NCBI GenBank assembly: GCA_016350165.1
Contig: CP066225.1
Span: 3,224,001 to 3,288,000 of the forward strand
Origin: Planctomycetota bacterium
GTDB taxonomy: Bacteria > Planctomycetota > Phycisphaerae > Phycisphaerales > Phycisphaeraceae
Direction of reading: 5' to 3'
Length of the DNA: 64,000 nt
This document shows, in pieces, positions 8,767-27,504 of this stretch (position 1 is the first letter of the stretch; the number at the start of each line of letters is the position of its first letter). The notes below the pieces were generated by a model. The model saw nothing but the letters and a program-made list of their open reading frames with translations. It had not been told where the DNA came from and searched no databases. Position numbers and translations under genes: made by a program.

Positions 8767-9438
8767 CGTTGTCCAATACGAACCAATGACTCACATAAAT
8801 ATAGACGTTCAACCCCACCTCTTTTTTCATGAGCCACTAAGAATTCTTCCAGTTCACCAACAGCCGGCGAGCCCCACTCGCCGTGCTCATTACCTTGCAC
8901 CTCCTCATCGCATTTTCATTTCGACCGACTGTTCAAACAATAAGCCGAATTTCATATACAGCATAAACCACCCCGAAAGCGCGCATATTCGCGCCTCTGC
9001 GTCACAGAGTCCGCGCTCAAAACAGCCCAATTCTTCTCATTTCCTGCTCGTTTCGCATTAAAACTCGCTCAAACCGCGCCGTTTTTGGCCACTTTCAGCA
9101 GCCCAAAATCACCTCAACACCGCATTCATGCGCGCAAACGCGCCGCGCCGTCGCAACCCATTCTCAGCTACACCCTCATTTCCGCCGCACCGCGCGCACA
9201 GCAATCGAACACACCTCAACAAATCCGCGCGCACGATCACAACAACTTTCCAATAAATATTTTCACACAATATCTCACCCAAAATTGCAGACGTGCAAAC
9301 CGAAATTAGTGATAATGGCTGAAACATCCTCCATCGCTATCCGTCTATTTATACGGTGGCAGGATATATGGCACCATCTATTACGATTCAACGTAAATAG
9401 TGTCAACAAAAAGACATGCAATCAATCAGGATATCACC
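8767..9438. other. Intergenic region with one hairpin repeat
   Basis: C/A-rich non-coding stretch holding one REP-like hairpin (8861-8890) and the presumed promoters of the flanking divergent genes. No gene or RNA recognised. Confidence 0.5.
8861..8890 (+). repeat. REP-like hairpin repeat, copy 1
   Basis: Stem CGGCGAG (8865-8871)/CTCGCCG (8877-8883) with five-base loop, preceded by CAAC-AGC and followed by TGCTCAT, as in the copy at 50186. Confidence 0.65.
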
Positions 9439-11451
9439 ATGAGCAATCAGCATGATGATCTTAGAAATACACGGGGTGTGGTCAGCTCAGTCAAAGGACG
9501 TATGAGCTTAATCTCAGTCGCACGCATGAGTTATATCTTCTGGATTTGGCTCGCGCTCGTCTGCGTCATCCTCATTACCATCAGCAAAACCACCGGTTGG
9601 ATGGCGGAATACATCAGCTACTGGATGGGTGCCGCAATGGTCCTCGCTTTTGCCGCCCTCGCCATCGGTTTAGGCCTCCTATTCCATGGCCGCATCGATG
9701 ATCGTAACAGCGCTAAAAAAATTGATAACCACATGGGCACCAAGGACTTATTCCTCACCGCCCATGAACTCAGCGAAAAGCAGAAGCAGCAGAAAGACAA
9801 CCGCGTCTTCGCATTCTTCCCTCTCGTCGTCAAAGATGCAGAGATGAGTGCAAACGAAGTTCGCGCCGATCAGGTCGTCCCGCTCGATCCATGGAACAAG
9901 AGCGTCAAGTCAGGCTTCATGGGCTGTGCCCTCGTCCTCGCTGTCGCCTTAGTCCCGCAGTTCGACCTCCTTGGTGAGCAAGCAATTACAGAAAAAGTTG
10001 CGCAGCAGGAAAAAGAACTCAAACAGGAAGTCAAAAAAGCAGAACGCCGTGAACGCGAGCTCGCTCAAAAGAAACTCGAAGACGCACTCAGTGAATCAAC
10101 CCTCGCAAAACTGCAGGCCCTTCAGATCGACCTCGAAGGCCTAAAACCCTCTGAACGCGAGAAAAACCGCCAAAAGATCGCAAAACACCAAGCCGTTCTC
10201 GATCAGGAATGGAAAGAGCTCAAAAAAGCCAACGCCAAATCACTCCGCAACAGCGGCAAACACTTCGGCGGCAAAATGAACAAAGAAATGGCCGCCATGC
10301 TCAAAGAGCTCGACAACGGCAACGCCGCTCCAGTCGAAGCTGAATTCGAGAAAATGGCCAACCTCGCCAAACAAATACAAAGCGAAAAAGACCCAATCCA
10401 GCAACAGAAAATGAAAGATGATCTGAAGAAAAAGATCACACAAATGAGCATGGTCATGAAGCGCAGCGGCAGCAACACCGCCCCAATCCAAAAAGCGCTC
10501 CAAAAAGCCATGAACAATATCAACCAATCCGACAAGCCCGGCATGCAAAATTCTGCCATGCAGGCGCTCGCAAAACAACTTGGTCTAAGTGCCCGTGAAA
10601 CCAAGGCTTTACAACAGCGCATGAACGATATGAATGCCATCAAACAGGCCATGAAAACCGCACAACTTGCGCAACAGGCGAACCAAAAACAAAACCTCAA
10701 CGGCCAACAAATGGCCCAGCAATCAAAAGCCAACCAACAAACCCAAAAACAAGGCGCACAAGGTCAAAAGCAAGGCCAAAAACAGGGCCAGCAGGGTCAG
10801 CAACAAGGTCAAAAACAAGCTTCATCTCAGCAGCAACAGGGCCAAAAACAAGGTCAAGGACAGAAGCAAGGTCAGGGTCAAAGCCAAGGTCAGAGCCAAA
10901 GCCAAGCGAGTGCTAAAAGCGGTTCGGGGCAGGGACAAAAATCGGGTCAAAGTGGTAGTAGTGGTGGAAGTAAGCCGGGTAATAGCAGGAGCATAAGTAA
11001 CGGAAGCAAGAGTGCGGCGCAGTGTCAGGCGGCGCTGAAAAATTATGCGAAGTGGTACCACGATCAGTTGAAATTCTCGAACTGTAAATCGTGTGGCGGT
11101 TCAGGTTGTTCATCATGCGGCGGATCAGGTTCAGGTGGGGGTATGAAGGGGCCGGGCCGCGGCGCAGGCGGGCTTGCACCGAAGGACCCGACTGCGAAGA
11201 CGAACATGAAACAGGAAATGGATGTGTCGCCGTTTGTTAAGGGGCGCATTTTGCACAGTGAGAAGACGAATGAAGAAGCGCCGATTGGTGAGGTAATCAA
11301 GTCGTATCGTCCTGCTGCATCGGATGTTATGCAGGATGTGAGTGAAGCGATTGATCGCCAGGATATTCCGCCAGGGTATGAAGGCGCGATTACGAATTAC
11401 TTTAAGGATATGGAAGAAGACGAAAAGGAACAGAGTGGCGGGGGTAACTAA
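9439..11451 (+). CDS. Membrane coiled-coil protein with Gln/Gly-rich region and DnaJ-like Cys motif
   Basis: Large membrane protein of 670 residues, function unknown. ATG 9439 (AGG nine bases upstream) is preferred to GTG 9400. Two membrane helices near the N-terminus and a third at about residue 165 are followed by a Lys/Glu/Gln coiled coil (about 185-410), a Gln/Gly/Lys tract of tandem GQKQ-type repeats, and a Cys cluster CKSCGGSGCSSCGGSG resembling a DnaJ zinc repeat. The layout recalls DUF4175-type proteins found near MoxR/DUF58/BatA genes, which lie 9 kb downstream, but I cannot confirm that family. Codon use changes abruptly inside the Gln tract near 10.9 kb, from C-ending to G/T-rich codons. 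Confidence 0.75.
   Translation: MSNQHDDLRNTRGVVSSVKGRMSLISVARMSYIFWIWLALVCVILITISKTTGWMAEYISYWMGAAMVLAFAALAIGLGLLFHGRIDDRNSAKKIDNHMGTKDLFLTAHELSEKQKQQKDNRVFAFFPLVVKDAEMSANEVRADQVVPLDPWNKSVKSGFMGCALVLAVALVPQFDLLGEQAITEKVAQQEKELKQEVKKAERRERELAQKKLEDALSESTLAKLQALQIDLEGLKPSEREKNRQKIAKHQAVLDQEWKELKKANAKSLRNSGKHFGGKMNKEMAAMLKELDNGNAAPVEAEFEKMANLAKQIQSEKDPIQQQKMKDDLKKKITQMSMVMKRSGSNTAPIQKALQKAMNNINQSDKPGMQNSAMQALAKQLGLSARETKALQQRMNDMNAIKQAMKTAQLAQQANQKQNLNGQQMAQQSKANQQTQKQGAQGQKQGQKQGQQGQQQGQKQASSQQQQGQKQGQGQKQGQGQSQGQSQSQASAKSGSGQGQKSGQSGSSGGSKPGNSRSISNGSKSAAQCQAALKNYAKWYHDQLKFSNCKSCGGSGCSSCGGSGSGGGMKGPGRGAGGLAPKDPTAKTNMKQEMDVSPFVKGRILHSEKTNEEAPIGEVIKSYRPAASDVMQDVSEAIDRQDIPPGYEGAITNYFKDMEEDEKEQSGGGN
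10737..10970 (+). repeat. Tandem Gln/Gly codon repeat inside a gene
   Basis: Imperfect repeats of CAAGGTCAAAAG-type units encoding GQKQ, continuing into GQSQ and SGQ units. Strand composition switches here. Confidence 0.7.
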
Positions 11452-11458
11452 CCGTTAG
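11448..11458. repeat. Short CTAA/TTAG palindrome containing stop codon
   Basis: CTAACCGTTAG, five-base arms around one base, with the TAA stop of the upstream gene inside. It is shorter than the 15-bp family. Confidence 0.35.
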
Positions 11459-11763
11459 ATAGACGCGATCGGGGTGGCCAAGTTTTTGGGTGCAGTGATG
11501 GGTTGGATGATGAGTTGGGTGATGAGTTGGGTGTTGGGTTAGAGTGATGAGTTAGAGTGGTGGTGTAGAGTATTTGGGCGGGGTGGTGAGACGGGGTGAT
11601 GAGGGTGTTGGGTTTTGTGGGGTGATGGGCGTGGGAGTATGGATTGGGGTGTTGGCGTTGATGTGGAAGTGAGGCTTGGGCGGTCCGTAGGCTACGGTTA
11701 ATGAATAACAGTCATAGGGGTTTTATGGGGCTGGTGATCTTTGATTGCAGATTTGGGTGATTT

Positions 11764-11786
11764 GTTTCACTTAAACGTATCGTTGG
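11764..11786 (+). repeat. GTTTCACT-type 23-bp repeat, copy a
   Basis: GTTTCACT, TAAA, then CGTATCGTTGG. Same order as the copies at 13700 and 13748. Confidence 0.65.
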
Positions 11787-11935
11787 TTGCTGTGGGAGTA
11801 GGGTGAAGGGGGGAAGGGTTGTGAGAGTTGTGGAGGTGGGTGTTTGGGAGTGGGGGTTCTGGCAATTTTTGGTTGCTGGAGTTGGTGATGTGTTTCGCTG
11901 GTGCGTGCTGTTTTGTGTGGCTGATTGTTTTTGTT

Positions 11936-11958
11936 GTTGCACTTAAACGTGTTGTTGG
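11936..11958 (+). repeat. GTTTCACT-type 23-bp repeat, copy b (diverged)
   Basis: GTTGCACT, TAAA, then CGTGTTGTTGG; differs from copy a at three positions. Confidence 0.55.
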
Positions 11959-12040
11959 AAATGGTGGGGTGAGTGGTTCAAGAGGGGAGTTGGGATGAAA
12001 TGAGTTGGGGCAAGGCGTTGGGGTATGAGGTGCGACTGCA

Positions 12041-12208
12041 ATGGAAATTGGCGTTTTCATAGCTCTGATTGTGTTGGGGGTGATGTTTGTGAGCGGGGTG
12101 GTGTTGGTGGGGTTGTGGTACCGGTCGCGGGGCGGGGGAGAGGAAGGAATGGGGAGCCGGGAGGTGCGGGTATTTGGTGAAGGGGTTGAGCGAACTGAAA
12201 TGCCCTGA
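12041..12208 (+). CDS. Possible small single-pass membrane protein
   Basis: Open frame of 55 residues from ATG 12041, with GAGG about ten bases upstream. Residues 4-27 are a hydrophobic helix (GVFIALIVLGVMF...) followed by a basic, Gly-rich tail. It overlaps the next small frame by 32 bases. No family recognised; G/T-rich sequence makes open frames easy by chance. Confidence 0.3.
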   Translation: MEIGVFIALIVLGVMFVSGVVLVGLWYRSRGGGEEGMGSREVRVFGEGVERTEMP

Positions 12209-12323
12209 ATGTGGGGCTGACTTACGAAAAGTTGGGATCAGGAAAAAAGAGGGTGAGAAGCGGTGGATGTTGGTTTGGGGGTGGGTGCTGATTGTTCTTT
12301 CATTGCTTGGCGTGTTGTCATAA
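12177..12323 (+). CDS. Possible small zinc-ribbon membrane protein
   Basis: Open frame of 48 residues from GTG 12177 (or TTG 12186). It has one CxxC knuckle in KCPECGADLRK and a C-terminal hydrophobic helix (VWGWVLIVLSLLGVLS). CPECGADL is typical of half zinc ribbons in short membrane proteins, which is why I list it. No close SD at the GTG. Confidence 0.38.
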   Translation: MKGLSELKCPECGADLRKVGIRKKEGEKRWMLVWGWVLIVLSLLGVLS

Positions 12324-12397
12324 TGAGAGGATGAAGGGCGTTAGATGCTTTGCTTTGGCGAGGCAATATGACGTATGGGTAACTAAAAAAATAATAA

Positions 12398-12412
12398 CTA
12401 ATCGTTGATTAG
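12398..12412. repeat. CTAA-N7-TTAG palindrome, upstream of binding protein
   Basis: CTAATCGTTGATTAG, six-base arms; lies 38 bases before the binding-protein start. The identical sequence recurs at 13884. Confidence 0.65.
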
Positions 12413-12450
12413 ATGGTTTGCTTGTGTTTATTGAATGAGGAAAAATTGTG

Positions 12451-13626
12451 ATGAGAATTGCAAAGAAGTTGAGTGTTGTAACGGGCTTGGTTGTTGGGGC
12501 TGCGATGTTTGGTTTGGCTGGTTGTGGTGATGGTGGGAGCGTGCAGGGGAAGAGCGATGATGCGAAAGCTAAAGAGGGGAAGGGTGAGGTTGTTGTTTAT
12601 TGTGCGCATGACTCTATTTTTTCAGAGGGGATTTTGGATGCGTTTGAAGAGAAGACGGGGATTGATGTTAAGGTGAAATTTGATACGGAAGCGACGAAGT
12701 CGTTGGGGCTGACGGAGCTTTTGATTGCTGAGAAGGATCATCCGAAGGCGGATGTGTTTTGGAATAATCAGTTATTGGGGACGGCGGATCTTGCGTCTAA
12801 GGGTGTGTTAGAGAGTTATAAGGGTGAGGGTTGGAAGCGTATGCCTGAAGGGTTGAAGGATAAAGATGGTTTGTATACGGGGTTTGCGGGGCGGATGAGG
12901 GTAACGATTTATAATACGAATAAATGGAAGAGCGGGGCTAATACGTTAAAGGTTGGCGGGATTAGTAGAATTAGCTCTGAGGATTATTGGGTGAAGAAAG
13001 GGGCGATAGCGAAGCCTTTGTATGGTACGACGCTGAGTCATTATGCTGTGATGTGGGATATTATGGGTGAAAATAGTGTGAAGCAATGGCACAACGATTG
13101 GCGCGAGCGCGGGGTCGTTGAGAAAGGTGGGAACTCAACAGTGAAGAATCTTGTTGCGGAAAATGTGTGCCAGTGGGGTTATACGGATACAGATGATTTT
13201 TATGTTGCGAAGGATGCGGGCAAGTCGGTGGGGATGTATCCAGTATGGGTCTATAGCAATGAAACTGATTATTCGAAGATGCATGCTGAGATTATTAATG
13301 GAGTATGGACATTGAAAGCAATGCAGCCAACGGTTGGGTTTAAGCGATGGACGATTTGTATTCCGAATACGGTGGGGCTTGTTAAGGGTGCGAAGAACGA
13401 TGCGAATGCGAAGTTGTTGATTGATTATTTGCTGAGTGAAGAGGTGGAGTTAGCGTTGGCGGCTTCGAAGGCGCGGCAGATTCCTTTGGGGGATGTGGAT
13501 GAGTCGAAGCTGAGCGATGAGGTGAAGCAGTTGAAGGCATGGGCGAAGGATGCTTATCCGATTGCTGATTTGCTGGAGGAGAGGAATGCGGCGCTTCAGT
13601 GGTTGAAGGAGAAGTATTTGAATTAG
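12451..13626 (+). CDS. ABC transporter substrate-binding lipoprotein, iron(III)-type family
   Basis: Extracytoplasmic solute receptor of 391 residues. The signal ends GLAGC, so a lipoprotein. The fold opens GEVVVYCAHDSIFSEGILDAF and shows TEATKSLGLTELL and HPKADVFW, matching the AfuA/FbpA-type family that binds Fe3+ or, in relatives, thiamine or 2-aminoethylphosphonate. Ligand choice within the family is not certain from sequence. GTG 12448 is an equal alternative start; GAGG precedes both. The permease and ATPase follow, so the three make an importer. The gap to the permease is 286 bases and carries repeats. Confidence 0.85.
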   Translation: MRIAKKLSVVTGLVVGAAMFGLAGCGDGGSVQGKSDDAKAKEGKGEVVVYCAHDSIFSEGILDAFEEKTGIDVKVKFDTEATKSLGLTELLIAEKDHPKADVFWNNQLLGTADLASKGVLESYKGEGWKRMPEGLKDKDGLYTGFAGRMRVTIYNTNKWKSGANTLKVGGISRISSEDYWVKKGAIAKPLYGTTLSHYAVMWDIMGENSVKQWHNDWRERGVVEKGGNSTVKNLVAENVCQWGYTDTDDFYVAKDAGKSVGMYPVWVYSNETDYSKMHAEIINGVWTLKAMQPTVGFKRWTICIPNTVGLVKGAKNDANAKLLIDYLLSEEVELALAASKARQIPLGDVDESKLSDEVKQLKAWAKDAYPIADLLEERNAALQWLKEKYLN

Positions 13627-13699
13627 TTTTTTAGTGCTAGGGACTAGTGCTAGTGCTAGGAGAGGTGGTGGAGGTGTGAGGCTTGGGGTGTGGTGATAT

Positions 13700-13722
13700 G
13701 TTTCACTACAGCGTATCGTTGG
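13700..13722 (+). repeat. GTTTCACT-type 23-bp repeat, copy c
   Basis: GTTTCACT, ACAG, then CGTATCGTTGG. Confidence 0.65.
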
Positions 13723-13747
13723 TAGGCGAGGCGATAGTTGGTGAGAT

Positions 13748-13770
13748 GTTTTACTAAAGCGTATCGTTAG
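13748..13770 (+). repeat. GTTTCACT-type 23-bp repeat, copy d
   Basis: GTTTTACT, AAAG, then CGTATCGTTAG; starts 48 bases after copy c. Confidence 0.65.
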
Positions 13771-13821
13771 AAAATGGTGAGGGAGAAGGGGAGAAGGGGA
13801 GAAAGGGAGGGGTGGAGGAAG

Positions 13822-13855
13822 ACCGGCGGGCTGTCAGCCCGCGGCTATTGGCGTT
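13822..13855 (-). repeat. REP-like hairpin repeat, copy 2
   Basis: Stem GCGGGCT/AGCCCGC with GTC loop, followed by GGCTATTGGCG. Read on the minus strand it begins CCAATAGCCG like the copy at 50186. Confidence 0.65.
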
Positions 13856-13883
13856 GTAGGAGTGATGTTGGTTGTAAGTTTGT

Positions 13884-13898
13884 CTAATCGTTGATTAG
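13884..13898. repeat. CTAA-N7-TTAG palindrome before permease
   Basis: CTAATCGTTGATTAG, identical to 12398; ends 14 bases before the permease GTG, overlapping the ribosome-site region. Confidence 0.65.
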
Positions 13899-13912
13899 GA
13901 GTTTTTTGTAGC

Positions 13913-15580
13913 GTGAGTTTTTGGCAGGCGATGATGTGGAGCGGGGGACGAGCGGTGGTGGTGGGCCTGCTGGCTGTGGTTGTGGGTGTGGGGGTTGCGC
14001 GTGTGTTGAAGTGGGTGTTAAATAATTGTGGATTGCGGAATTCGGATTGCGGAATGAAGATGAGGAGAGGAGGGTGTGAGGGAGTGAGAGTTTCCGGCGA
14101 TCACGGATCGCCGGCTATTGGAGTTGGGGGAGATGCGATTAAAGAAAATATGGGGAGTATGAGAGGGGGGAGATTGCAGTGGTTGATTAGACGAGTGGGG
14201 ATGTTGGGATTGGTTTGTTTATTGGTGGGTGGGGTGGTTGGGCCGATGGGGTTGCCTAGCTTGGTGGTGGGGTATGCTTGGGGGGATATGGGTGTGAGTT
14301 TGGTGAGGCATCCGGGTTGGAATGAGGTGCTTTATGGTGGGTTGTTGTTGGGGAGATATGGGGTGGTGAGCGGTTTTGTGATGTTGTTTGGGCCACGGGG
14401 CGGGACGAGTGAGGCGGGGGTTTGGTGTGGTGGATCTGTGGGTGGGATTAAAGGTTTGATGGTGAGGTGGAGTGATTGGTTGAGTCGGGGTGTGATTGCG
14501 TTTTGTGCGGTGTTTTTGCTGGTGTTTAGTGAGTTTGAGATTGCGAGTTTGTTGGGGAGGCCGACGTGGACGGTTTGGTTGTTTGATGCGCAGGTGGGTG
14601 GGTTGAATATTTTGAAGGCGCTGGTGAATGTGGTTTGGCCGTTGGGCGTGCAGGTTGTTGTGGTGGGCGGGTGTGCAGTTTGGTATTTGAGAAGAGAGGG
14701 AAGGCTGGGAGCGAATGACAATACGGATATGCGTAAAAAGAAAGTAGGGGTTGTGAGTTTGATGTTGGGTGGGATGTGGTGCTTGTTTGCTTTTGTTTTG
14801 GTGGTGGGGTTGCCTAGCTTTTATGTGATGAAGGATGCGGCTAAAGGTTTGGGGAGAGTGATTGGGGATGGACGATTTTGGGATGACCTTTGGTTTAGCG
14901 GGGTGTATGCGATGATCGGAACGGTGGGGGCGGTGTTGCTTCTGGTTGTGGTGAGAGGATTGGTTGGGAAGGTTTTGAGAAGTCGGATGAGTGGTGGTGG
15001 GGATGTGGTGATCGGTGTGGTGAGCGCGATGGGGTTGAGTGGTGGTTTGGTTGTTGGGTTATTGTTGGTGAATGGGAGATTGTGGTTTGAGAGATTGACG
15101 GGGAGTGAGTTTTTTAGTGGTACGACATTTGGCGAGTGGTTGTTAATAGGTGGGGGCTTGATGGTGGTGTTGTTGCCGATGGGATGGGTGCTTGGGCTAT
15201 TGGCGAGGGCGCGAAGGGACCGTCAGGCGGCGCATATTGCGAAGATGATGTGGCGCGGTGGTGATGACAGGGGTGTGCGGCGGTTTGGGATGCGTATGTG
15301 GTGGAAACGGAGTGGGAGCGTTTGGTATTGGGTTGGCGCGTATGTGTTTTTCCAGGGGTTTTTTGAATTGAGCGCGAGTGCGATCCTGTATCCGGCGGGC
15401 GGCACGCCTGCGGCTGTGAGGATGTACAATCTGATGCATTACGGTCAGAGTCAGGTGCTTAGCGCGATGGTGGTTTTGAGTGTTGTGGCTTGTGGTCTGG
15501 TGATGTTGTTTGGGAGGGGGATGGCGGCGTGGCTGATGTTTGAATGTTCGCGTAGTTGGTATCGAGGGGGCGTGCGATGA
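13913..15580 (+). CDS. ABC transporter permease, iron(III)-type (two fused permease halves)
   Basis: Integral membrane protein of 555 residues with about twelve hydrophobic helices, as expected for FbpB-type fused permeases. It partners the binding protein upstream and the ATPase downstream, whose ATG overlaps its stop (ATGA). GTG 13913 has GGAG eleven bases upstream. Residues about 40-85 are an unexpected low-complexity hydrophilic stretch: the DNA there holds two GGATTGCGGAAT-like copies and a REP-like hairpin (14092-14121) read in frame. The protein is extremely rich in Val, Gly, Leu and Trp, following the G/T-rich strand. Family assignment rests on context and helix pattern more than on conserved motifs. 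Confidence 0.72.
   Translation: MSFWQAMMWSGGRAVVVGLLAVVVGVGVARVLKWVLNNCGLRNSDCGMKMRRGGCEGVRVSGDHGSPAIGVGGDAIKENMGSMRGGRLQWLIRRVGMLGLVCLLVGGVVGPMGLPSLVVGYAWGDMGVSLVRHPGWNEVLYGGLLLGRYGVVSGFVMLFGPRGGTSEAGVWCGGSVGGIKGLMVRWSDWLSRGVIAFCAVFLLVFSEFEIASLLGRPTWTVWLFDAQVGGLNILKALVNVVWPLGVQVVVVGGCAVWYLRREGRLGANDNTDMRKKKVGVVSLMLGGMWCLFAFVLVVGLPSFYVMKDAAKGLGRVIGDGRFWDDLWFSGVYAMIGTVGAVLLLVVVRGLVGKVLRSRMSGGGDVVIGVVSAMGLSGGLVVGLLLVNGRLWFERLTGSEFFSGTTFGEWLLIGGGLMVVLLPMGWVLGLLARARRDRQAAHIAKMMWRGGDDRGVRRFGMRMWWKRSGSVWYWVGAYVFFQGFFELSASAILYPAGGTPAAVRMYNLMHYGQSQVLSAMVVLSVVACGLVMLFGRGMAAWLMFECSRSWYRGGVR
14092..14121 (-). repeat. REP-like hairpin repeat, copy 3, inside permease gene
   Basis: Stem CCGGCGAT (14094-14101)/ATCGCCGG (14107-14114), five-base loop, followed by CTATTGG. 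It lies in frame in the permease coding sequence. Confidence 0.65.
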
Positions 15581-16704
15581 AAGAAGTTGTTATGGGTAAA
15601 GATGAAGCGAAGCGGATTTGGCGGCTTGATGAAGTTTGGAAGGGCAAGGGGGATGGCGCGCGGTTGAAGGGTGTGAGTCTGGATGTGCGCGAGGGCGTGA
15701 CGGCGGTGGTGGGGTGTTCGGGTGCTGGGAAGAGCACGCTGCTGAATTTGCTGGTTGGTTTTGAGCAGGTTGATGGTGGGAAAGTTTTAGGATGTGGTGG
15801 AGATGAAAAGAAGGTTGGTTTTTTGGGGAGGTTGTTTGGTAGGCGAAATAAAGGGGGGATGGTTGGTTGGGCACCGCAGGGTGGCGGGTTGTGGAGTGGA
15901 ATGACGGTGCGGGGTCATTTGGAGGCGGTGTTGCCTTGGAGTTGTTATGCGTTTGTGCCGGTTGGTGATGGTGGTAGAGAGATTGTGGATTTGAGTGGGC
16001 GGGATAAGGGTGAGGTTGTTGGGTTGTGGCTGAAGTCGTTTGGTTTGGAGGCGTTGGCGGATCGTGTTGTGGGTCGGTTGTCGGGAGGAGAGCGGGCGCG
16101 GTTGAGTGTGGTGAGGGCGCTTGGGATGTGTAGTGGATTGGATTGGGGCGGGATGCATAGGGAGCCGGGGATTGTGGTGTTGGATGAGCCTTTGGTGAGT
16201 GTTGGGAAGGGGGATGCGCGGGGGTATTGGGAAGTGATACGGCGGTGGCGGGGGGTGACGGGTGGAAATGTGGTTTTTTCGACACATTTTCCGGAATTGG
16301 TGATACGAGAGGCGGATTGGATCGTCTGTATAGAGGATGGGGAAGTTGTTTGGGAGGGAGAGGTTATGGAGCTGTATGAAAGGCCTGTGAGTGAGAAGTT
16401 GGGGGCGTATTTGGGGGAATTGAACTGGTTTGAGGCGGGGGAGATGGGGGTTGGTGAAGAAGGAGGGAGAGGGGTGAGGCCTGAGAAACTTCGGGTTGAG
16501 GTTGTTGAGGGAGAAGGTGGGGATGAGTTGGGGTGGATTGTGGTGAGTAGTGAGCGGGTGGGTGCTGTGGTGGAGACGGTGGTGAGGTTGAGTGGGGGTG
16601 AGCAGAAACGGCTGCTGCATGTTGGGGAAGTGTTGGAGGTGGGCGCGACTGTGAGGGTGTTTGTGGTGGATCATTGTGAGATGCAGGTTAAGGCTTGTAT
16701 CTAA
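15577..16704 (+). CDS. ABC transporter ATPase subunit
   Basis: Cytoplasmic ATPase of 375 residues that powers the importer. Motifs: Walker A GCSGAGKS, Q-loop WAPQGGGLW, signature LSGGERARL, Walker B IVVLDEP, and switch His in FSTHFPE. The last 100 residues are a beta-rich extension, as in FbpC/PotA-type ATPases. ATG 15577 overlaps the permease TGA (ATGA) with a GGGGG run upstream, so translation is coupled; the in-frame TTG 15556 is less likely. The signature to Walker B spacing is longer than usual, with about ten extra residues (GMCSGLDWGGMHREPG). Confidence 0.9.
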   Translation: MKEVVMGKDEAKRIWRLDEVWKGKGDGARLKGVSLDVREGVTAVVGCSGAGKSTLLNLLVGFEQVDGGKVLGCGGDEKKVGFLGRLFGRRNKGGMVGWAPQGGGLWSGMTVRGHLEAVLPWSCYAFVPVGDGGREIVDLSGRDKGEVVGLWLKSFGLEALADRVVGRLSGGERARLSVVRALGMCSGLDWGGMHREPGIVVLDEPLVSVGKGDARGYWEVIRRWRGVTGGNVVFSTHFPELVIREADWIVCIEDGEVVWEGEVMELYERPVSEKLGAYLGELNWFEAGEMGVGEEGGRGVRPEKLRVEVVEGEGGDELGWIVVSSERVGAVVETVVRLSGGEQKRLLHVGEVLEVGATVRVFVVDHCEMQVKACI

Positions 16705-16800
16705 CTGATGGATAGAAAATTTTCCGGCAAGGCTTAGTGAGTTTAAGTAAGATAATTGCGAATGATTTTTAAGTTGGATGAACAAGTGAAGCGGTTTGAG

Positions 16801-17829
16801 ATGGTGAAGCGCGGCGTACGTGGGTTGCTGTGTGGTGGTTGCGTGGTGGGTGTGATGGTTATTGGGGGGTGTGGTGGTGAGCAGCATGGGGATGTGGCGG
16901 TGAGTGAGTTGGGGGTGAAGACGTTTAATACGTGGGTGGTGCCTGCGGATGATGGGATTGTGCCTGCACCGAGGAGTATTACGATTGGTGAGGATGATCG
17001 TGTGTTGGTGCTTGATAATGGGGGAAGGGTGTTGATTTATTCGAAGGATGGCGAGCTGGAGAAACAGTTTGATATGCCGACGAATGAGGCGGGGAATCCT
17101 GAGGGAGCGTGTTGGCTACGAGATGGGCGGATTGTGGTTGCAGATACGCATTACTTCCGGTTGGTGTTCTTTAATGAAGATGGTGAGGTTGTGGAGACGC
17201 GGGGTAGTAAGAGTGAGAAGGGTGAGAAGGGTAAATATATTTATCCGGTCGATGTGGTGCAGGATGAGGATGGGTTTATTTATGTGGCGGAGTATGGGGG
17301 GAATGACCGTGTGCAGAAATTTACGGAGGATGGGGAGTTTGTGTTTGATTTTGGGAAGTTTGGGACGGGGCCGGGCGAGTTTCAGCGGTGTGCGGGGATG
17401 TTTATTCGGGGTGAAGAGATTTGGGTAGCGGATGCGACGAATGGTCGCGTGCAGGTGTTTAATAAGGATACGGGTGATTATTTGCGGATGCTGGGGCAGG
17501 AGAGGGAGTTGGATGAGGTTGAGAGTGATGGTGAGATTGCGGTTGTGGCGGGTAGTGAGGACGGACTGAGGAGGGGGCCTTGGGGTGAGTATGTGTTTAA
17601 TTATCCGTATGACTTGGCGGAGGGTGAGGATGGGGTTTATGTGTTGGAGTGGGGTGGTGGGCGATTTGTGAAGATTGGTTTTGATGGTGAGGTGAAGGGG
17701 TTTTATGGGAAGCCGGGGATGAGGGAAGGTGAGTTTAGGACGCCTTGGGGGATTGGTGTGGATTCGCGAGGGCATGTGAGGGTGGCAGATACGAAGAACA
17801 GGCGAGTCGTGGAGGTGGTCTTTGAGTAA
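16801..17829 (+). CDS. NHL-repeat beta-propeller lipoprotein
   Basis: Exported protein of 342 residues with an NHL-type beta-propeller, a fold used for binding rather than a single reaction. From ATG 16801 it starts MVKRGVRG and has lipobox VIGGC; ATG 16762 would add 13 residues before the signal. Repeats are seen as IYPVDVVQDEDGFIYVAE, YGGNDRVQKF, IWVADATNGRVQVF and GIGVDSRGHVRVADTKNRR. The final bases overlap the SD and TTG start of the next gene, so it belongs with the VWA-MoxR series rather than only with the importer. Confidence 0.83.
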   Translation: MVKRGVRGLLCGGCVVGVMVIGGCGGEQHGDVAVSELGVKTFNTWVVPADDGIVPAPRSITIGEDDRVLVLDNGGRVLIYSKDGELEKQFDMPTNEAGNPEGACWLRDGRIVVADTHYFRLVFFNEDGEVVETRGSKSEKGEKGKYIYPVDVVQDEDGFIYVAEYGGNDRVQKFTEDGEFVFDFGKFGTGPGEFQRCAGMFIRGEEIWVADATNGRVQVFNKDTGDYLRMLGQERELDEVESDGEIAVVAGSEDGLRRGPWGEYVFNYPYDLAEGEDGVYVLEWGGGRFVKIGFDGEVKGFYGKPGMREGEFRTPWGIGVDSRGHVRVADTKNRRVVEVVFE

Positions 17830-20800
17830 GGTTATGGAACGATTCTATTCAATGGTTAGAGGGCTGGTTCCACCACCGCGTGCGAAGGTTGGTGTGGGTG
17901 ATGTGATGCCGCTGGTGCTGTTTGGTGTGTTTTATGCAGTGGTGCTAGTGGGTGTGGTGATGATGGAATGGGTTGCGTTCACTTGGTTGGGCGCGTTTTG
18001 GCTGATGGGGTTGGCGATTTGGGTATGGTGGATCGATCAATGTGGTTTTAGTGGTTTGCGCGGTATGCGTAAGGGGATGGCGCTGTGGGCACGGTTGTGT
18101 TTGTTGGGTTTGTTTGTGGCGCTGCTTGCGGAGCCACGGATGGTGCGGAAAGATGATTCGCTTTCGGTTGTGTTTCTGATTGACCAGTCACAGTCGATGC
18201 GCCGTGATTCGGTGGATGAAGCGAAGCGGTTTATGGCGAAGATTGCGGCTGAGAAGCCGATGCGTGATGAGATTGGGGTTTTGACATTTGGTAAGGGCGC
18301 GGTTGTCGAGTTACCGCCTGCGGAGGTCTTTCCGTTTGAAGGTTTTGCGCTTGAGGTTGCGAGGGATGGCACGAATTTAGAGAAGGGGTTGAGGTTAGCG
18401 AGTGCGGTGTTGCCTGATGATAAGCCAGGCAAGATTGTGCTGGTGAGTGATGGTGCGAGTACTGAGGGTAATGTTGATGGTGTGTTGAAGCAGTTGAAGG
18501 CACGTGGGACGAAGGTCGATGTGCTGACGGCTGACTATCGGTATGACAAAGAGGTATTGATTGAGCGTTTGGAATTGCCACGCGCTGTGAAGATGGGTGA
18601 GACTTATGAGGTGGCGGGGATTGTTCGAGCGGAGAGCGATGGACGGGGTAAACTGACGTTGACTGAGAATGGTCAGGTGGTTTGGCAGGGTGATGTTGAT
18701 TATCACTATGGGATGAACCGGTATCGTATTCCGATCTACATGCGTAACCCGGGGTACTATACATATGAGTTGACGATTGATACGGAAGAGGGTGAGGATC
18801 ATATTGAGGAAAATAACCGTGCGATCAGTTATCTGTATTTGCAGGGTGAAGGTCGTGTGCTGCTGGTGACGCAGCCGGGCGGGGACATGAGAGATTATGA
18901 TCCGATCGTGCAGGCATTGCGTGAAAGTGAGCGCGATGTTGAAGTGATTGATGGTTATAGTTTGCCGGACGATCCGCTGGCGTTTTTGATGTATGACTGC
19001 GTGATGTTTGTGAATGTTGGGGCGGAGAATTTCAACGCAGCGCAGATGAGTGCGGTGAAGGAAGCGGTTGAACGTCACGGTACGGGTTTTGTGATGGTTG
19101 GTGGTGAGAACAGTTATGGGCCGGGCGGGTATAACCGGACTGCGATTGAAGAGATATTGCCTGTGACGATGGATGTGTCGCAGCGAAGAGTGTTGCCTAA
19201 GGCGGCGCTTACGATTGTGCTGCATACATGTGAGTTTGCACAGGGTAATACTTGGGGGCAGGAGATTACGAAGGCTGCGATCAAGGTTTTGAGCGCAGAG
19301 GATGAAGTGGGTGTTTTGGTTTATGACTGGCAGGGTGGTGAGAAGTGGTTGTTCCAGTTGACGCCTGCGAGAAACTATCCGTTCCTAGCGCGACAGATTA
19401 ATGGTGCACAGATTGGTGACATGCCATCGTTTGCGCCGACGATGCGGATGGCTTATAACGAGATGGTGAAGAGCGATGCTTCGATGAAGCACGTGATTAT
19501 TATTTCGGATGGTGACCCGTCGCCGCCGTCACCTGCGTTGTTGAATAAGTTTGTGAAGTCGAAGATCAGTGTCTCGACAGTTGCAGTGTTCCCGCATGGT
19601 AATACGTTGCCGCCGGTTATGCAGCAGATTGCGAATGTGACGCGTGGTCGATTCTATTTTCCAAAGAATCCGAATTTGTTGCCTCAGATTTTTATCAAGG
19701 AAGCAAAGACACTTCGTAAGAGCATGATCCAGAACAAAACGTTCTTGCCTGAGATGGTTTATCCGTCGGCTGTGATGAAGGGCATTAATACGATGCCGAA
19801 TTTGCATGGCTATGTGATAACGACTCCTAAAGCTAGATCGACAACGATTTTGGAAGTGCCTGCGACCGAGGATAAAGATCCGGTGTTGAGTGAGTGGCAG
19901 TTTGGTTTGGGTAAGTCGGCTGCGTTTACGTCGGACTTGAACACGAACTGGGCCCGCGACTGGATGAACTGGGATAACTATAAAGCGTTTGTTCATCAGA
20001 TGGTGACGAATGTTGCGCGGGTTAAGGAACAGAGTAATCTGCGTATGCAATTGATTGCGGATGGTGGCCGTGGACTGATATTGATTGAAGACTATGCACC
20101 GGATAGTCGATTCCTTGAGATTGGTGCTTCAGTTAAGGGGCCTGATGGTAAGGAAGAGATTGTAAGTTTGGAGCAGGTCGGTCCGCGTCGCTATGAGGCG
20201 GAGTTTGATCTGAATGGTGAGGGGCGATATGAAGTTGGTGTGATCGGCGCGGGTGGTGAGGATGCAAATGGTGAGCCGATTGAAGAGAAGACTTATGGTG
20301 GTTTGATGGTTGCGTATTCGCAGGAATATCTAAGGTTGCGTTCGAATCCGATCGTGATGGAAGAAATTGCTGAGAAGACAGGTGGTAAGGTATTGAGTGG
20401 AAGTGAGGGGGCGAGTGATATATTTGAAATTGAGAGAGAAGCGAAGTCACGTTCGAAGCCGGTGTTTGATTGGCTGCTGATTTTGCTCGCGTGTTTGATA
20501 CCGATTGATGTAGGTTTACGCAGGATTCAGATTGACTGGATGGTTGTGCGTGAGATGATCGGGTTTAAGAAGCAGCGTGATGTTTCGAGAGAGACGTATA
20601 CGAATTTGCTTGCACGTAAGGAAGGTACACGTGATCGGTTGTATCAGGATGAGAAGTTGCAGCAGGCTCGTGAGTCTCAGGAAGAAGTTGGAGATATAGA
20701 CGAGTCTAATCATGGGTTAGTTGGTGCGATGATTGGTGAGGAAGAAGCAGGGGCGGAGAAGAGTGAGCCAGATACGATGGCGATTCTAGCAGCAAAACGA

Positions 20801-20833
20801 CGAGAAGAGCGCGATGCGCAAGATAAGGAATAG
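17822..20833 (+). CDS. VWA-domain membrane protein with glutamine-amidotransferase-like segment
   Basis: Large protein of 1003 residues. Two to three membrane helices (about 28-110) precede a first VWA domain with MIDAS DQSQS in VVFLIDQSQSMRR. A class-I amidotransferase-like segment follows (VMFVNVGAENF, GTGFVMVGGENSYGPGGY), then a second VWA-like region (HVIIISDGDPSPP), beta-rich sequence and a last helix near residue 880. It lacks an obvious amidotransferase Cys-His pair, so a binding role is likelier than catalysis. Start is TTG 17822: GGAGG at 17811-17815 sits six bases before it, inside the NHL gene end. In other planctomycetes such proteins accompany MoxR and DUF58, as here. Confidence 0.85.
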   Translation: MSKVMERFYSMVRGLVPPPRAKVGVGDVMPLVLFGVFYAVVLVGVVMMEWVAFTWLGAFWLMGLAIWVWWIDQCGFSGLRGMRKGMALWARLCLLGLFVALLAEPRMVRKDDSLSVVFLIDQSQSMRRDSVDEAKRFMAKIAAEKPMRDEIGVLTFGKGAVVELPPAEVFPFEGFALEVARDGTNLEKGLRLASAVLPDDKPGKIVLVSDGASTEGNVDGVLKQLKARGTKVDVLTADYRYDKEVLIERLELPRAVKMGETYEVAGIVRAESDGRGKLTLTENGQVVWQGDVDYHYGMNRYRIPIYMRNPGYYTYELTIDTEEGEDHIEENNRAISYLYLQGEGRVLLVTQPGGDMRDYDPIVQALRESERDVEVIDGYSLPDDPLAFLMYDCVMFVNVGAENFNAAQMSAVKEAVERHGTGFVMVGGENSYGPGGYNRTAIEEILPVTMDVSQRRVLPKAALTIVLHTCEFAQGNTWGQEITKAAIKVLSAEDEVGVLVYDWQGGEKWLFQLTPARNYPFLARQINGAQIGDMPSFAPTMRMAYNEMVKSDASMKHVIIISDGDPSPPSPALLNKFVKSKISVSTVAVFPHGNTLPPVMQQIANVTRGRFYFPKNPNLLPQIFIKEAKTLRKSMIQNKTFLPEMVYPSAVMKGINTMPNLHGYVITTPKARSTTILEVPATEDKDPVLSEWQFGLGKSAAFTSDLNTNWARDWMNWDNYKAFVHQMVTNVARVKEQSNLRMQLIADGGRGLILIEDYAPDSRFLEIGASVKGPDGKEEIVSLEQVGPRRYEAEFDLNGEGRYEVGVIGAGGEDANGEPIEEKTYGGLMVAYSQEYLRLRSNPIVMEEIAEKTGGKVLSGSEGASDIFEIEREAKSRSKPVFDWLLILLACLIPIDVGLRRIQIDWMVVREMIGFKKQRDVSRETYTNLLARKEGTRDRLYQDEKLQQARESQEEVGDIDESNHGLVGAMIGEEEAGAEKSEPDTMAILAAKRREERDAQDKE

Positions 20834-20839
20834 ATCATT

Positions 20840-21880
20840 ATGAATGAGCAAGCGATAGGTAGCGGCGTAGGTAGTGGTGCGGGTCTTGAGCAGCAAGCGG
20901 CACTGTTTCGTCGTGAATTGACAGCGATCAAGTCCGAGGTCGAGAAAGTGATCATCGGGCAAGAGCGTGTTGTTGAGAGTGTGTTGACAGCGATGTTCTG
21001 TGGCGGCAACGTGCTTCTCGAAGGTGTGCCTGGATTGGGTAAGACTGAATTGGTTAAGGCTTTGAGTCGAGTTTTAGAGCTTGATTTTAAGCGTATTCAG
21101 TTTACGCCCGACCTTATGCCTGCAGACATCATTGGTACGAATGTGATGGCGCATAGTGATGCTGAGGGTGAAACATCTGGTGGTGGATACCGGATTGAAT
21201 TCCGTAAGGGCCCGATCTTTACGCAGTTGTTGTTGGCGGACGAGATCAACCGTGCTACGCCTAAGACGCAGTCAGCTTTGCTTGAAACGATGCAAGAGAA
21301 GACGGTGACAGTTGGTGGTCAGACGTATCAGTTGGAGTTGCCGTTCTTTGTACTGGCGACGCAGAACCCGTTGGAACAAGAGGGTACGTATCCGTTGCCT
21401 GAGGCGCAGTTGGACCGTTTCATGTTTAAGGTGAATGTGCCGTTTTTGAAGCGTGAAGGTTTGAATGAAGTTGTGAACCGTACGATCTTGAAGCAGTCGC
21501 AGCCTATTGGAAAGGTGATTGACGGCAAGCGTATTATGGAGCTTGGCAAGATTTTGGATCAGGTTGTTGTAACGGATTCAGTAAGAGACTTTGCATGTCG
21601 CTTGGTTTTGGCGACACATCCTGATACAGAGTATGCGACTGATGAAGTGAAGAACTTTGTTAACTGGGGTGCGAGTCCTCGTGCTGCTCAGGCGTTGGTT
21701 AAGGCGGCTCGTGTTAGAGCATTGGCGGATGGCCGCGTGCATGTTGCTCACGAGGATGTGAAGGCATGGGCTGTTGAAGTGCTACAGCACCGTGTGCTGT
21801 TGAATTATGACGGTCAGGCAGAGCGTGTTGATGTTGGCCAATTGGTGAACTCGATTATTGCGAAGATTTCAAGAGATTAA
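20840..21880 (+). CDS. MoxR-family AAA+ ATPase
   Basis: Cytoplasmic chaperone-like ATPase of 346 residues. Walker A GVPGLGKT, Walker B LLLADEINRA, sensor region VLATQNPLEQEGTYPLPEAQLDRF, and a C-terminal lid (GASPRAAQALVKAARVRAL). MoxR proteins work with VWA proteins to activate or assemble complexes at the envelope; the target here is unknown. Six bases separate it from the VWA gene, with AAGGA upstream of the ATG. A CTAA-N7-TTAG palindrome lies between it and DUF58. Confidence 0.93.
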   Translation: MNEQAIGSGVGSGAGLEQQAALFRRELTAIKSEVEKVIIGQERVVESVLTAMFCGGNVLLEGVPGLGKTELVKALSRVLELDFKRIQFTPDLMPADIIGTNVMAHSDAEGETSGGGYRIEFRKGPIFTQLLLADEINRATPKTQSALLETMQEKTVTVGGQTYQLELPFFVLATQNPLEQEGTYPLPEAQLDRFMFKVNVPFLKREGLNEVVNRTILKQSQPIGKVIDGKRIMELGKILDQVVVTDSVRDFACRLVLATHPDTEYATDEVKNFVNWGASPRAAQALVKAARVRALADGRVHVAHEDVKAWAVEVLQHRVLLNYDGQAERVDVGQLVNSIIAKISRD

Positions 21881-21918
21881 ACGTCCGTAAGAAGATGTGA
21901 AGTTAGTTTTGTATGTAT

Positions 21919-21933
21919 CTAACGGTTGGTTAG
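21919..21933. repeat. CTAA-N7-TTAG palindrome between MoxR and DUF58 genes
   Basis: CTAACGGTTGGTTAG within a longer ATCTAA...TTAGAT arm; 16 bases before the DUF58 start. Confidence 0.55.
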
Positions 21934-21949
21934 ATGTAAGGAGACTGTT

Positions 21950-23134
21950 TTGGCAGAGCAAGGGCGTGAAGATCAATCGAGCAGTCATTTGTCGTCACTT
22001 AAAGGTAAGGTGAGGCAGAAGACAGATGGTATGCGCGCTGATGGTGATGGGTTGGGGCAGCCGAAGAAGGCTGAAAAGCCTGCGAAAATGGTCAATTGGA
22101 GTGGTGATGCTGGGGCGATTAATGACGCGAAGGTGGAAAAGGAAAAGGGGAGTGGTGTGACGGGTGTGTTGGGTGCTGCAGCGACGGCGGTGCTTGGTGG
22201 TGGTGACAAGAAAAGGGTGAGTAGTGGTGTATACGAGGGTGTGGGTGAAGGTGGTGTAACGAAGCTACTATCTAATGATATGTTAGCTCGTATTGAGCGG
22301 ATGCGTATTGTTTCGAATCGTAAGAATACGAATCGGATGAGAGGTGAGCATCTGTTTGGTAAGGGCGGGACAAGTACGGAGTTTTCGGATTACCGTAATT
22401 ATGTTGAGGGGGATGATATTCGTTATGTTGACTGGAATATTTTTTCGCGACTTGGGCGGCCTTACCTGAAGCAGTATCGGCATGAAGAAGAGATGCAGGT
22501 TGTGCTGATGGTGGACAGTTCGAATTCGATGTTGTTTGATTGGAAGTTTGAAAGAGCGAAGCAGTTGGCTGCTGCGTTTGGTGTGATGGGGTTATTTAAT
22601 AATGAGAAGGTGAGCGCGTATACGATTGGTGGTAATGAGGGTGGGAATGCATCGATGAAGGCGTGTACAGGGCGAGGAAGTATGCCGAAGTTGTTTGGGT
22701 ATTTGGAAGGGCTTGAAGGTGGTGGGAATGAACAAATGGAAGAGGGGATTGAGCGGATACTGAAGAGTCATCGTGGTAAAGGTGTGGTGGTGATCTTGAG
22801 TGACTGGTTGTCGTATGGTGATGTGAGTGGGCCGCTGACGCGGTTGACGAGTGTGGGTTTGGAAGTAATGGCGATTCAGGTATTGAGTCCGGTTGAGATT
22901 GATCCTGAGTTGGATGGTGATTTACGGTTTTTGGATAGTGAGGGAGCGGGGATGTTGGATGTGAGTGCAGCGGGTGATGTTGTGGGGTTGTATCAAGAAT
23001 ATCGGCTGAAATATGAGCGACATTTGGAGAATCATTGTCGGCTGAGGGGAGGACGGTTTACGGTGACGAGTAGTCGCGATGATTTGAAGCACGTGCTGTT
23101 TGATATGCTGCTGCGGAAAGGTTGGGTGCGCTGA
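21950..23134 (+). CDS. DUF58 domain protein
   Basis: Protein of 394 residues; the start is TTG 21950 because AAGGAG (21938-21943) lies six bases before it. About 90 residues of low-complexity sequence come first, then the DUF58 hallmark EFSDYRNYVEGDDIRYVDWN followed by a VWA-like fold with VVLMVDSSNSML (MIDAS-like DxSxS). DUF58 proteins are coded with MoxR ATPases and are taken to act with them; their own activity is not established. The TGA stop overlaps the ATG of the next gene by one base (TGATG). Confidence 0.9.
   Translation: MAEQGREDQSSSHLSSLKGKVRQKTDGMRADGDGLGQPKKAEKPAKMVNWSGDAGAINDAKVEKEKGSGVTGVLGAAATAVLGGGDKKRVSSGVYEGVGEGGVTKLLSNDMLARIERMRIVSNRKNTNRMRGEHLFGKGGTSTEFSDYRNYVEGDDIRYVDWNIFSRLGRPYLKQYRHEEEMQVVLMVDSSNSMLFDWKFERAKQLAAAFGVMGLFNNEKVSAYTIGGNEGGNASMKACTGRGSMPKLFGYLEGLEGGGNEQMEEGIERILKSHRGKGVVVILSDWLSYGDVSGPLTRLTSVGLEVMAIQVLSPVEIDPELDGDLRFLDSEGAGMLDVSAAGDVVGLYQEYRLKYERHLENHCRLRGGRFTVTSSRDDLKHVLFDMLLRKGWVR
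22272..22286. repeat. CTAA-N7-TTAG motif inside DUF58 gene
   Basis: CTAATGATATGTTAG, in frame within the coding sequence; may be chance. Confidence 0.25.
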
Positions 23135-25083
23135 TGCCAGGGTTTTTTGCATTAGGTAGTAGCTTGCTGTTTTTGTTGTTTGTGCCACTGATTGTGATGT
23201 ACTTTTTGAAGTTGCGCAGGCAGCAGGTTGAAGTACCTTCGTTGGTGCTTTGGCGAAAAGTTTTGGCGGACAGTCGAGTGAACAGTCCGTTTCAAAAGTT
23301 TAAGAAGCATTTGTTATTGTTGTTGCAACTATTGTTGTTGACGGCAATGATTTTGGGTGCGATGCAGCCGTTTATTAAGGGGGATAAGGATAATTTTAAG
23401 AGTGTGCCGATTTTGATTGACCACTCGGCGAGTATGGGGGCGTTAGATATGGCGGGTGGTGAGACGAGGTTGGATGTGGTGAAGGGGAAAGTAAATCAGA
23501 TTATTGATAATTTGAATCCTGATCAGCAGGTATGTTTGATTGGGTTTGCAGATTCGGCACGTAAGCTGACTGACTTTACGAATGACAAGCGGTTGCTGCG
23601 ATCGGTATTGGATGATATTGAAATTTGGGATGTTGAAAGTGGTGTTGAGGATGCACTACGTATGGTGGATGCGTTGGGACAACGACATCGGTTTAGTCGT
23701 GTGCTGATGTATACAGATGGGAATATACCGGATCATGTATCGGGCAAGTTGGCTTTTAATTTGGAGTTGATGCATGTTGACCAAGGTGGTAGTAATGCTG
23801 GGATTACAGCGCTGAGTGCGAAGCAGAATGATATGGATGGGTGGGATGTGTTTGTGAGTGTAGAAACGAACAGCGTGAGTAAGGTGACGGGTGATTTGCG
23901 GATGACGTTGAATGATGAGCTGGTTGCGAGACAAGCGGTATCATTGACGGCGGATATGCCTGAACGCGTGACGATGGGGTTGAGTGGGGTGAAGGATGGG
24001 ATGGTGAAGGTGCAGTATGTGCCTGATGGATTTGATGCTTTGAATGCAGATAATAAGGCGTTTTTGGAAGTTAAGCCTGTCAGGGATTTGGTTGTTGGTG
24101 TGAGTGAAGATTTGCCGGTGTTGGGGCGCGCGATTGAGGGATTGAATGGTATTGAGCTTGATGTGATTGATGATGGAAGTGAGCCGCTGGAAGAATACGA
24201 TCTGGTGGTGAGGAAATATAAGAAGCAGGTTGCTGGGGAGGGTGGAGATGATGTTGAGGCGGAGATTGGGCCTCATGGTAAGGTTGAGGTGTTGTGTGGT
24301 GGAGTGCCAAATGAGTTGGAGGGAATGTTGAAGATTGGTAGCCATGAGGATGGGGATGAGGTTGCTTCGGCGATGAAGCAATCGGAGTTGCTACGTCACT
24401 TGCATCTTGAAGATACCGTGTTTATCAATCGGGTGAAGTATGGGGAATATGAAGATGGATCGAGGGTGATGGAGGATGATTTGGAGAAGAAGGGTTGGGA
24501 GGTTTTGGCTCACGGTAGTGAGGGGCCGTTGATTATTCGGTCGAGAGTGCAGGGGCGATTGAAGTATGCGTTGCTGTTTAATATGGAAGATACGCAGTTG
24601 CCGTATACACCGACGCCGCCGATGTTGGCTGAGAACTTGAAGCAGATCACGTTATATCAGTCAGGTTTGCTTGAGTTGCGTGGTAAGAAGACAGGTGTGC
24701 TGGACACTATCCGTGAGTTAGATAATGAGACGGACTATGTGGTTGAAGGTGTGAAGCAGTCTGGTGGGGTCGTATCGCGTACAGTGAAGAGTAATAAGCG
24801 TGGTGAGATTTTGGGTGTTGAAGTGAAGCATGCTGGCGCGTATGAGATCAAAGGTACGAATGTGAAGGTTGGCGCGAGTTTGCTTAGTCCGAAAGAAACA
24901 GCGATGAACAAGGTTGATGAGATTCGATTTGATGAGTTGGTGGCTGGTTCGACAAATAGTGATGTGATGATCGATAAGCCAATCTGGAAATGGTTTGCAG
25001 TAATTGGTTTGACGTTTTTATTAGTCGAGTGGTGGTTCTATCAGCGTAAGCCGGGGGGATGGGGCCGAAAGGTTGCGCGTTGA
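23134..25083 (+). CDS. BatA-type VWA membrane protein
   Basis: Protein of 649 residues with the BatA N-terminal layout: a first membrane helix (LLFLLFVPLIVMYFLKLRR), the linker RQQVEVPSLVLWRKVL, a second helix (HLLLLLQLLLL), then a VWA domain with MIDAS DHSAS (VPILIDHSASMGA) and a last helix near the C-terminus (FAVIGLTFLLVEWWFY). ATG 23134 overlaps the DUF58 stop, so translation is coupled. It ends the NHL-VWA-MoxR-DUF58-BatA run at a perfect palindromic terminator. Confidence 0.87.
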   Translation: MPGFFALGSSLLFLLFVPLIVMYFLKLRRQQVEVPSLVLWRKVLADSRVNSPFQKFKKHLLLLLQLLLLTAMILGAMQPFIKGDKDNFKSVPILIDHSASMGALDMAGGETRLDVVKGKVNQIIDNLNPDQQVCLIGFADSARKLTDFTNDKRLLRSVLDDIEIWDVESGVEDALRMVDALGQRHRFSRVLMYTDGNIPDHVSGKLAFNLELMHVDQGGSNAGITALSAKQNDMDGWDVFVSVETNSVSKVTGDLRMTLNDELVARQAVSLTADMPERVTMGLSGVKDGMVKVQYVPDGFDALNADNKAFLEVKPVRDLVVGVSEDLPVLGRAIEGLNGIELDVIDDGSEPLEEYDLVVRKYKKQVAGEGGDDVEAEIGPHGKVEVLCGGVPNELEGMLKIGSHEDGDEVASAMKQSELLRHLHLEDTVFINRVKYGEYEDGSRVMEDDLEKKGWEVLAHGSEGPLIIRSRVQGRLKYALLFNMEDTQLPYTPTPPMLAENLKQITLYQSGLLELRGKKTGVLDTIRELDNETDYVVEGVKQSGGVVSRTVKSNKRGEILGVEVKHAGAYEIKGTNVKVGASLLSPKETAMNKVDEIRFDELVAGSTNSDVMIDKPIWKWFAVIGLTFLLVEWWFYQRKPGGWGRKVAR

Positions 25084-25130
25084 TGTATGATTTTGGGTAT
25101 GGGAACTTAGTGAAAAAGTAACTAATAAAT

Positions 25131-25158: not shown

Positions 25159-25182
25159 ATGCTTTTCTATTTGTGCGTTGTT

Positions 25183-27415: not shown

Positions 27416-27504
27416 TATGAATCTCCTTGCCTCCCACAAATACAACACGTTACCAGCAATTCTTATTTGAATTGTATTAATTTTGTATCGGGAAAAATGA
27501 TTGT

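Follow-up and report, generated by a model that had tools for sequence, protein, structure and literature searches.

The window analyzed here is a 64-kb stretch (C1:3224001-3288000) of a single-contig genome of 5,234,020 bases (G000) from a marine bacterium, which was taken as Poriferisphaera heterotrophicis ZRK32. Near its left end lies an intact plus-strand ORF (9439-11451; ORFs throughout this work are mechanical calls) that encodes 670 amino acids with a Gln-rich middle and has no assigned family. The protein gave no Pfam or NCBIfam match (E ≤ 0.001), no match was confirmed when genome contigs were searched with it, and Rfam at gathering thresholds yielded no match anywhere in the 64-kb window. 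A flip of codon style inside this gene had been proposed, and it was confirmed by a change point in the third codon positions. The share of G/T at these positions rises from 33% to 67%, with the best break at 10906 (support interval 10780-10942) and a log-likelihood gain of 31.6, compared with a maximum of 10.7 in 1000 permutations. For G versus C alone, the break was placed at 10789 (10741-10798). From the fits and their support intervals, the step from C/A-rich to G/T-rich third positions was assigned to 10741-10942. In 150-base bins, GC3 skew ranged from -0.19 to -0.58 before ~10.8 kb and from +0.20 to +0.60 beyond. The original prediction had the change take place within some tens of bases. 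For the third positions alone, this holds to about 160 bases, the width of the statistical support. The transition in overall composition is wider: in 200-base windows, GC skew is -0.48 at 9.1-9.3 kb and reaches +0.71 at 11.4-11.6 kb.

The intergenic DNA beside the gene has, on each side, the same bias as the adjoining genes. To the right, a G/T-rich arm was delimited at 11452-30300 from per-gene third-position skew and the skew profile, with genes on both strands alike. GC skew stays positive up to ~30 kb, regardless of gene direction. The arm is followed by a zero-crossing zone at 30300-36500 and, again from per-gene third-position skew and the profile, by a C/A-rich arm at 36500-52800. A second upward flip lies near 53.3 kb. 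For neighboring genes on opposite strands, third-position skew was correlated at 0.79 (n = 113) and 0.80 (n = 117). Across five segments of the genus, the correlation between neighboring genes was 0.73-0.88, and that between opposite-strand pairs was 0.56-0.86. An effect of gene direction was ruled out, the bias being common to opposite-strand neighbors.

Larger parts of this chromosome and of one other genome of the genus (G001, 4,291,168 bases, taken as P. corsica KS4) were examined. In total, the sampling covered 464 kb plus 200 kb of G000 (5.23 Mb) and, in G001 (4.29 Mb), 800 kb plus 200 kb. Wherever the two Poriferisphaera genomes were sampled, GC skew followed a sawtooth independent of gene direction, with an upward jump every 15-60 kb, or roughly every 35 kb overall, and a fall until the next one. 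Altogether, 35 upward jumps were called in 1.264 Mb of the two genomes. The 464 kb surrounding the window contain 15 of them, the largest being +0.90 over 4 kb; the steepest fall was -0.51. The pattern is cleaner in P. corsica, where 400 kb yielded 10 jumps and a further 400 kb, drawn from three other places that included the flanks of dnaA on either side and the opposite pole, yielded another 10. GC content was 0.457 at zero crossings and 0.50 near the elements described below (G000 and G001 segments; in the window, the crossing lies at ~31-36 kb). Over 627 bins of 2 kb from the same segments, GC content and the absolute value of the skew were correlated (r = 0.45).

A k-mer scan of the 15 jumps from the window's genome gave hints only, and a motif emerged after the two genomes were pooled. 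In the pooled k-mers near the 35 jumps, this motif is TTTTGTGCGCRC, a GC-rich near-palindrome with a T-run. Clusters of at least two motif sites were located within 2.5 kb of 32 of the 35 jumps, compared with 14.8% of random points, although this count was made in the same segments that had yielded the motif, and the out-of-sample test below is the clean one. The jumps without a cluster are at 3050843 in G000 and at 4264776 (one site) and 54579 in G001. Conversely, 34 of 39 clusters with two or more sites lie at a called jump, and one of the five off-jump clusters is at a segment edge, where no jump was callable. The exact 12-mer occurs 155 times in the whole genome of the window and 77 times in that of P. 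corsica; the backward control gave 1 and 4 matches. For the out-of-sample test, 20 motif loci outside the first segments were used, 10 per genome with 10 kb on each side, taken as every fifth among the matches listed (for G000, up to ~2.37 Mb). The right-minus-left skew difference was positive in all 20 loci and at least 0.35 in 17, compared with 37% and 11.8% of 4856 random positions, which were drawn from the earlier segments. A short motif thus predicts the sites of strand-bias flips in two cultured species.

These data bear on the possibility that an ordinary two-replichore skew has been cut up by an inversion mosaic or by assembly error. Inversions do produce sign changes, and local rearrangements distinguish the two species. 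Such a mosaic should show rises and falls of equal sharpness, whereas the observed rises are sharp and the falls are gradual. In addition, the pattern is present in two separately published genomes, and the motif predicts the jumps. We regard this explanation as extremely improbable, and an inversion edge, which had been listed among the causes of the step, fails as a general cause: the rises, which the motif marks, are abrupt and the falls are not.

In the window, the first motif cluster (9129-9234, minus strand; cluster 3233182 of G000, n = 3) lies in the intergenic region 8767-9438 and is a candidate initiation element at the pivot of the first flip. Its sites are TGCGCGCA at 9129 and GCGCGCAC at 9192 and 9227. 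The cluster is degenerate, with no full TTTTGTGCGC copy and an incomplete T-run, and it is separated from the codon step by ~1.6 kb. The second cluster (54038-54358, plus strand) is a full-length dispersed element with sites at 54039, 54197, and 54346, spaced by ~160 and ~150 bases, and its skew step is near window position 53310. It was aligned with seven other copies. The eight copies align across several hundred bases, with three motif boxes ~150 bases apart; others are too diverged. An inter-site spacing of 147-150 bases recurs in the clusters. The centers of 27 of 32 clusters fall outside ORFs of at least 120 amino acids, with a non-coding share of the DNA of ~17%. In 31 of 41 oriented elements, the step lies on the 5' side of the motif; the flanking base composition favors such a reading, and no conclusion was drawn from it. 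The 3' part of the aligned copies (e.g. to the right of 54346 in the window) holds conserved boxes besides the motif, among them GTCCTCTATGGGGCCGGACCGGCCATTGAGG and TTTCACTAAAGCGTATCGT, the latter with a run that we take to resemble half a parS site. The segments contain about one element per 31 kb in ZRK32 and one per 40 kb in KS4, which extrapolates to ~170 and ~110 elements per chromosome, respectively.

The step in the gene could also have arisen if recombination through the Gln-rich repeat, as had been suggested, had joined two halves that differed in codon history. A clear step inside a single gene is what such an event would leave. For the P. corsica ortholog (G001:481608-483512), the jump lies to the left of the whole gene. 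In the N-terminal part, where 426 codons align and 244 residues are identical, GC3 skew was -0.38 in the window's genome and +0.82 in P. corsica; over the C-terminal 200 aligned codons (128 identical), the values were +0.44 and +0.83. Because the same N-terminal codons have the opposite skew in P. corsica, the fusion of two gene halves was rejected. The flanking DNA also matches the bias on each side whatever the gene direction, and the ortholog, far from sharing the split, has a single style throughout. We consider the chance that the gene is recombinant to be practically negligible. The premise that a gene has one codon style likewise fails, since the style is set by the position relative to the nearest element and not by the gene. 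The Gln-rich repeat looks incidental to the step, with the element sitting upstream in the intergenic region 8767-9438. As part of the initiation-site explanation developed below, the step is probably the flip zone of the 9129-9234 cluster, reaching into the gene by chance. A warning to be drawn is that codon style can switch within one gene for purely positional reasons.

Local skew tracks local element presence across the two species. Nine ZRK32 elements have a close ortholog anchor in the sampled part of P. corsica. For four of them the P. corsica pivot is at most 1 kb off, and for two it is 2.6 and 4.4 kb off. For the remaining three, P. corsica has no pivot in 12 kb, no upward step, and no two-site cluster in 10 kb.

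Averaged on 34 clusters, skew was about -0.28 on the left and +0.46 on the right; at the cluster itself it took the midpoint value of +0.09, with a transition zone of ~4 kb. At neutral sites, individual steps were no more than 2 kb away from their cluster in 51 of 52 cases (median offset, 0.98 kb), and G/(G+C) changed across the step from 0.28 to 0.77, with the three cluster-less jumps included. In 30 intervals of 15-60 kb, zero was crossed at 0.55 ± 0.12 of the interval, and the distance to the crossing was correlated with interval length (0.85); one of the 30 intervals has no zero crossing. After rescaling, the skew curve was alike for short, middle, and long intervals, and the shape is thus scale-free. 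A model linear in the fraction of the interval gave an R2 of 0.77 (898 bins, 30 intervals) and an AIC of -3413 versus -3353 for decay over a fixed length, although the bins are autocorrelated and the AIC gaps are therefore overstated. The slope of the skew scaled as length to the power of about -1.12. The collapse of the profiles on inter-element distance is expected where forks from neighboring sites meet in between.

We therefore consider it probable that the motif clusters act as dispersed sites or zones of replication initiation; the start of forks at the clusters, a mechanism based on C to T change, and any protein acting as initiator are what we infer from the compositional pattern. In this mechanism, forks would depart from each cluster bidirectionally, and the forks of neighboring clusters would meet at a variable place in between. 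The exposed lagging-strand template would lose C (C to T) over evolutionary time. The top strand would then become G/T-rich to the right of a cluster and C/A-rich to its left, changing linearly from one cluster to the next. The observed G/T excess of the top strand to the right of an element would fit its being the lagging-strand template of an outgoing fork there. In the window, the zone at 30300-36500, whose crossing lies at ~0.48 of the interval starting at G000 3233182, would be a candidate termination zone between the two elements. A replication-linked boundary is the sole survivor of the three causes originally offered for the step, with initiation itself being the inferred part. Whether more than 100 sequence-defined initiation sites per chromosome, spaced by tens of kb and with stochastic meeting of forks, replace single-origin control is a wider proposition, for and against which we give equal weight. 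Such a replication programme would resemble that of eukaryotes and would be encoded by dispersed copies of a non-coding element.

A fixed site and two outward arms would equally result if double-strand breaks occurred at the elements and the bias were left by end resection and repair. Resection from 5' to 3' bares the bottom strand in the rightward direction, and C to T change there lowers G on the top strand, which is opposite to the observed sign. Resection also gives no cause for rescaling with the distance to the next element, and we judge the break explanation very improbable. Alternatively, some other translocating machine may load or start at the elements and expose one strand; loop extrusion of the SMC type, a helicase, or outward transcription over very long distances would be examples. 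Machines from neighboring sites would also meet and would generate the same rescaled shape. Outward transcription on that scale would be antisense to about half of the genes and leaves the rescaling with distance unexplained, and we know of no strand-specific mutation bias caused by loop extrusion. This explanation appears improbable to us.

Each of the two genomes has two PF00308 matches. In P. corsica, dnaA is at position 361, where skew is -0.42 to -0.53. The skew flips ~7 kb further right, where a motif cluster is found, and one pivot lies ~6.5 kb from dnaA. The DnaA box is TTATCCACA. With at most one mismatch, TTATCCACA was not clearly enriched near the jumps (0.333 per kb, compared with 0.247 overall). 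ORFs showed no co-orientation with the nearest element, as 453 pointed outward and 489 inward (196 and 206 within 8 kb). They lean weakly with the direction from dnaA: plus-strand ORFs numbered 176 of 313 and 158 of 275 in the right half and 48 of 110 and 72 of 148 in the left half. An orthologous gene pair at G000:C1:3414427-3422763, 95% identical to P. corsica and presumably rpoB-rpoC from its size and conservation, runs towards the nearest element. A small classical skew component was also detected, with overall skew of +0.09 and +0.10 in the segments of the right half and -0.05 in that of the left half; sampled stretches gave -0.03, +0.06, and -0.08, with the signs expected for such a component.

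The weak lean of gene direction with dnaA rather than with the elements, and the expected signs of the classical component, favor an arrangement in which a single origin near dnaA copies the chromosome. The elements would then start a minor, strongly mutagenic outward synthesis, linked to repair, recombination, or transfer, which would run until it met that of the next element. The sawtooth is much larger than the classical component, as seen in the neutral-site G fraction of 0.28 to 0.77, and a minor process would have to dominate mutation. We consider this arrangement rather unlikely. Should replication turn out to be ordinary, the elements must anchor some second process that is strand-specific and strongly mutagenic, which would be equally unexpected.

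Bacterial chromosomes are, in the textbook view, single-origin replicons. One origin is described as the norm in bacteria in the part of PMC4403523 available to us, which states that at that time there was no evidence for two functional origins on one chromosome. No account of a bacterial sawtooth and motif pattern of this kind was found in the accessible portions of the open-licence PMC literature. Whether a bacterial chromosome can be run on about a hundred dispersed origins is now a directly testable question. The flip at the Poriferisphaera elements resembles that at an ordinary DnaA-oriC, where composition also changes from C- to G-rich. The differences are that there are many sites, that the motif differs from the DnaA box as commonly known, and that in P. 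corsica there appears to be no flip at dnaA itself. The skew N-domains of the human genome, as described in the available excerpts of PMC4729899, share the abrupt upward jumps and the linear decrease between them. A GC content higher near the jumps than in mid-interval is a further feature in common with Poriferisphaera. Poriferisphaera differs in being a bacterium, in its intervals of 15-60 kb versus 0.5-3 Mb, in a far larger amplitude, and in a motif at most jumps; moreover, its genes are not co-oriented with the inferred forks. In the cyanobacteria Synechocystis PCC 6803 and Nostoc PCC 7120, multiple origins, asynchronous initiation, and irregular GC skew have been reported (PMC7198777, in excerpt). 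Unlike in Poriferisphaera, no regular sawtooth or defined repeated element is described in the excerpted text. Some multi-origin cyanobacteria are stated in such excerpts to have no dnaA, in contrast to the PF00308 matches of both Poriferisphaera genomes. The archaea Haloarcula and Haloferax have several origins per chromosome, but, as far as the consulted extracts go, few per replicon and not a hundred or more.

The link between motif and skew is demonstrated in the genus and is weak in its sister genera. In the sister genera (G069, G077, G092, and G068), a right-minus-left change of at least 0.25 was found at only 3 of 15 motif loci. Among 301 genomes of the order, a motif count above 7 was obtained in five others only (G077, 32; G069, 28; G028, 14; G092, 11; G099, 9). 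Eight other genomes of the family or order, with 100 kb each, showed a far smaller spread of third-position skew, and the correlation between neighbors exceeded permutations in only two of the eight, G040 (0.50) and G057 (0.42). In both (C1:1000001-1100000 in each), a weaker regional bias independent of gene direction was observed, with no enrichment of the motif.

Loss of uracil-DNA glycosylase was tried as a cause of the strong bias and rejected, PF03167 being present in 10 of 10 genomes. Loss of RNase HI would be expected under constitutive R-loop-driven initiation of the oriK type. For RNase HI (PF00075), the genus gave only a distant match (E ~1e-7 to 1e-9), as did four of the five further genomes of the family, and the fifth, G036, gave none; in three relatives from the order the match was strong (E ~1e-43 to 1e-47). 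Because the weakness of PF00075 extends to family genomes beyond the genus, it is not genus-specific. The same applies to RNase HII (PF01351), which was weak or absent in all 12 genomes tried. In the whole genome of G089, unlike in the other genomes, the backward control gave 17 matches versus 6 for the motif. On many contigs of G069, motif pairs 101 bases apart are located no more than a few hundred bases from the contig start (e.g. C6:259, C17:542, C19:529, and C22:98), as if near-identical repeats had broken the assembly.
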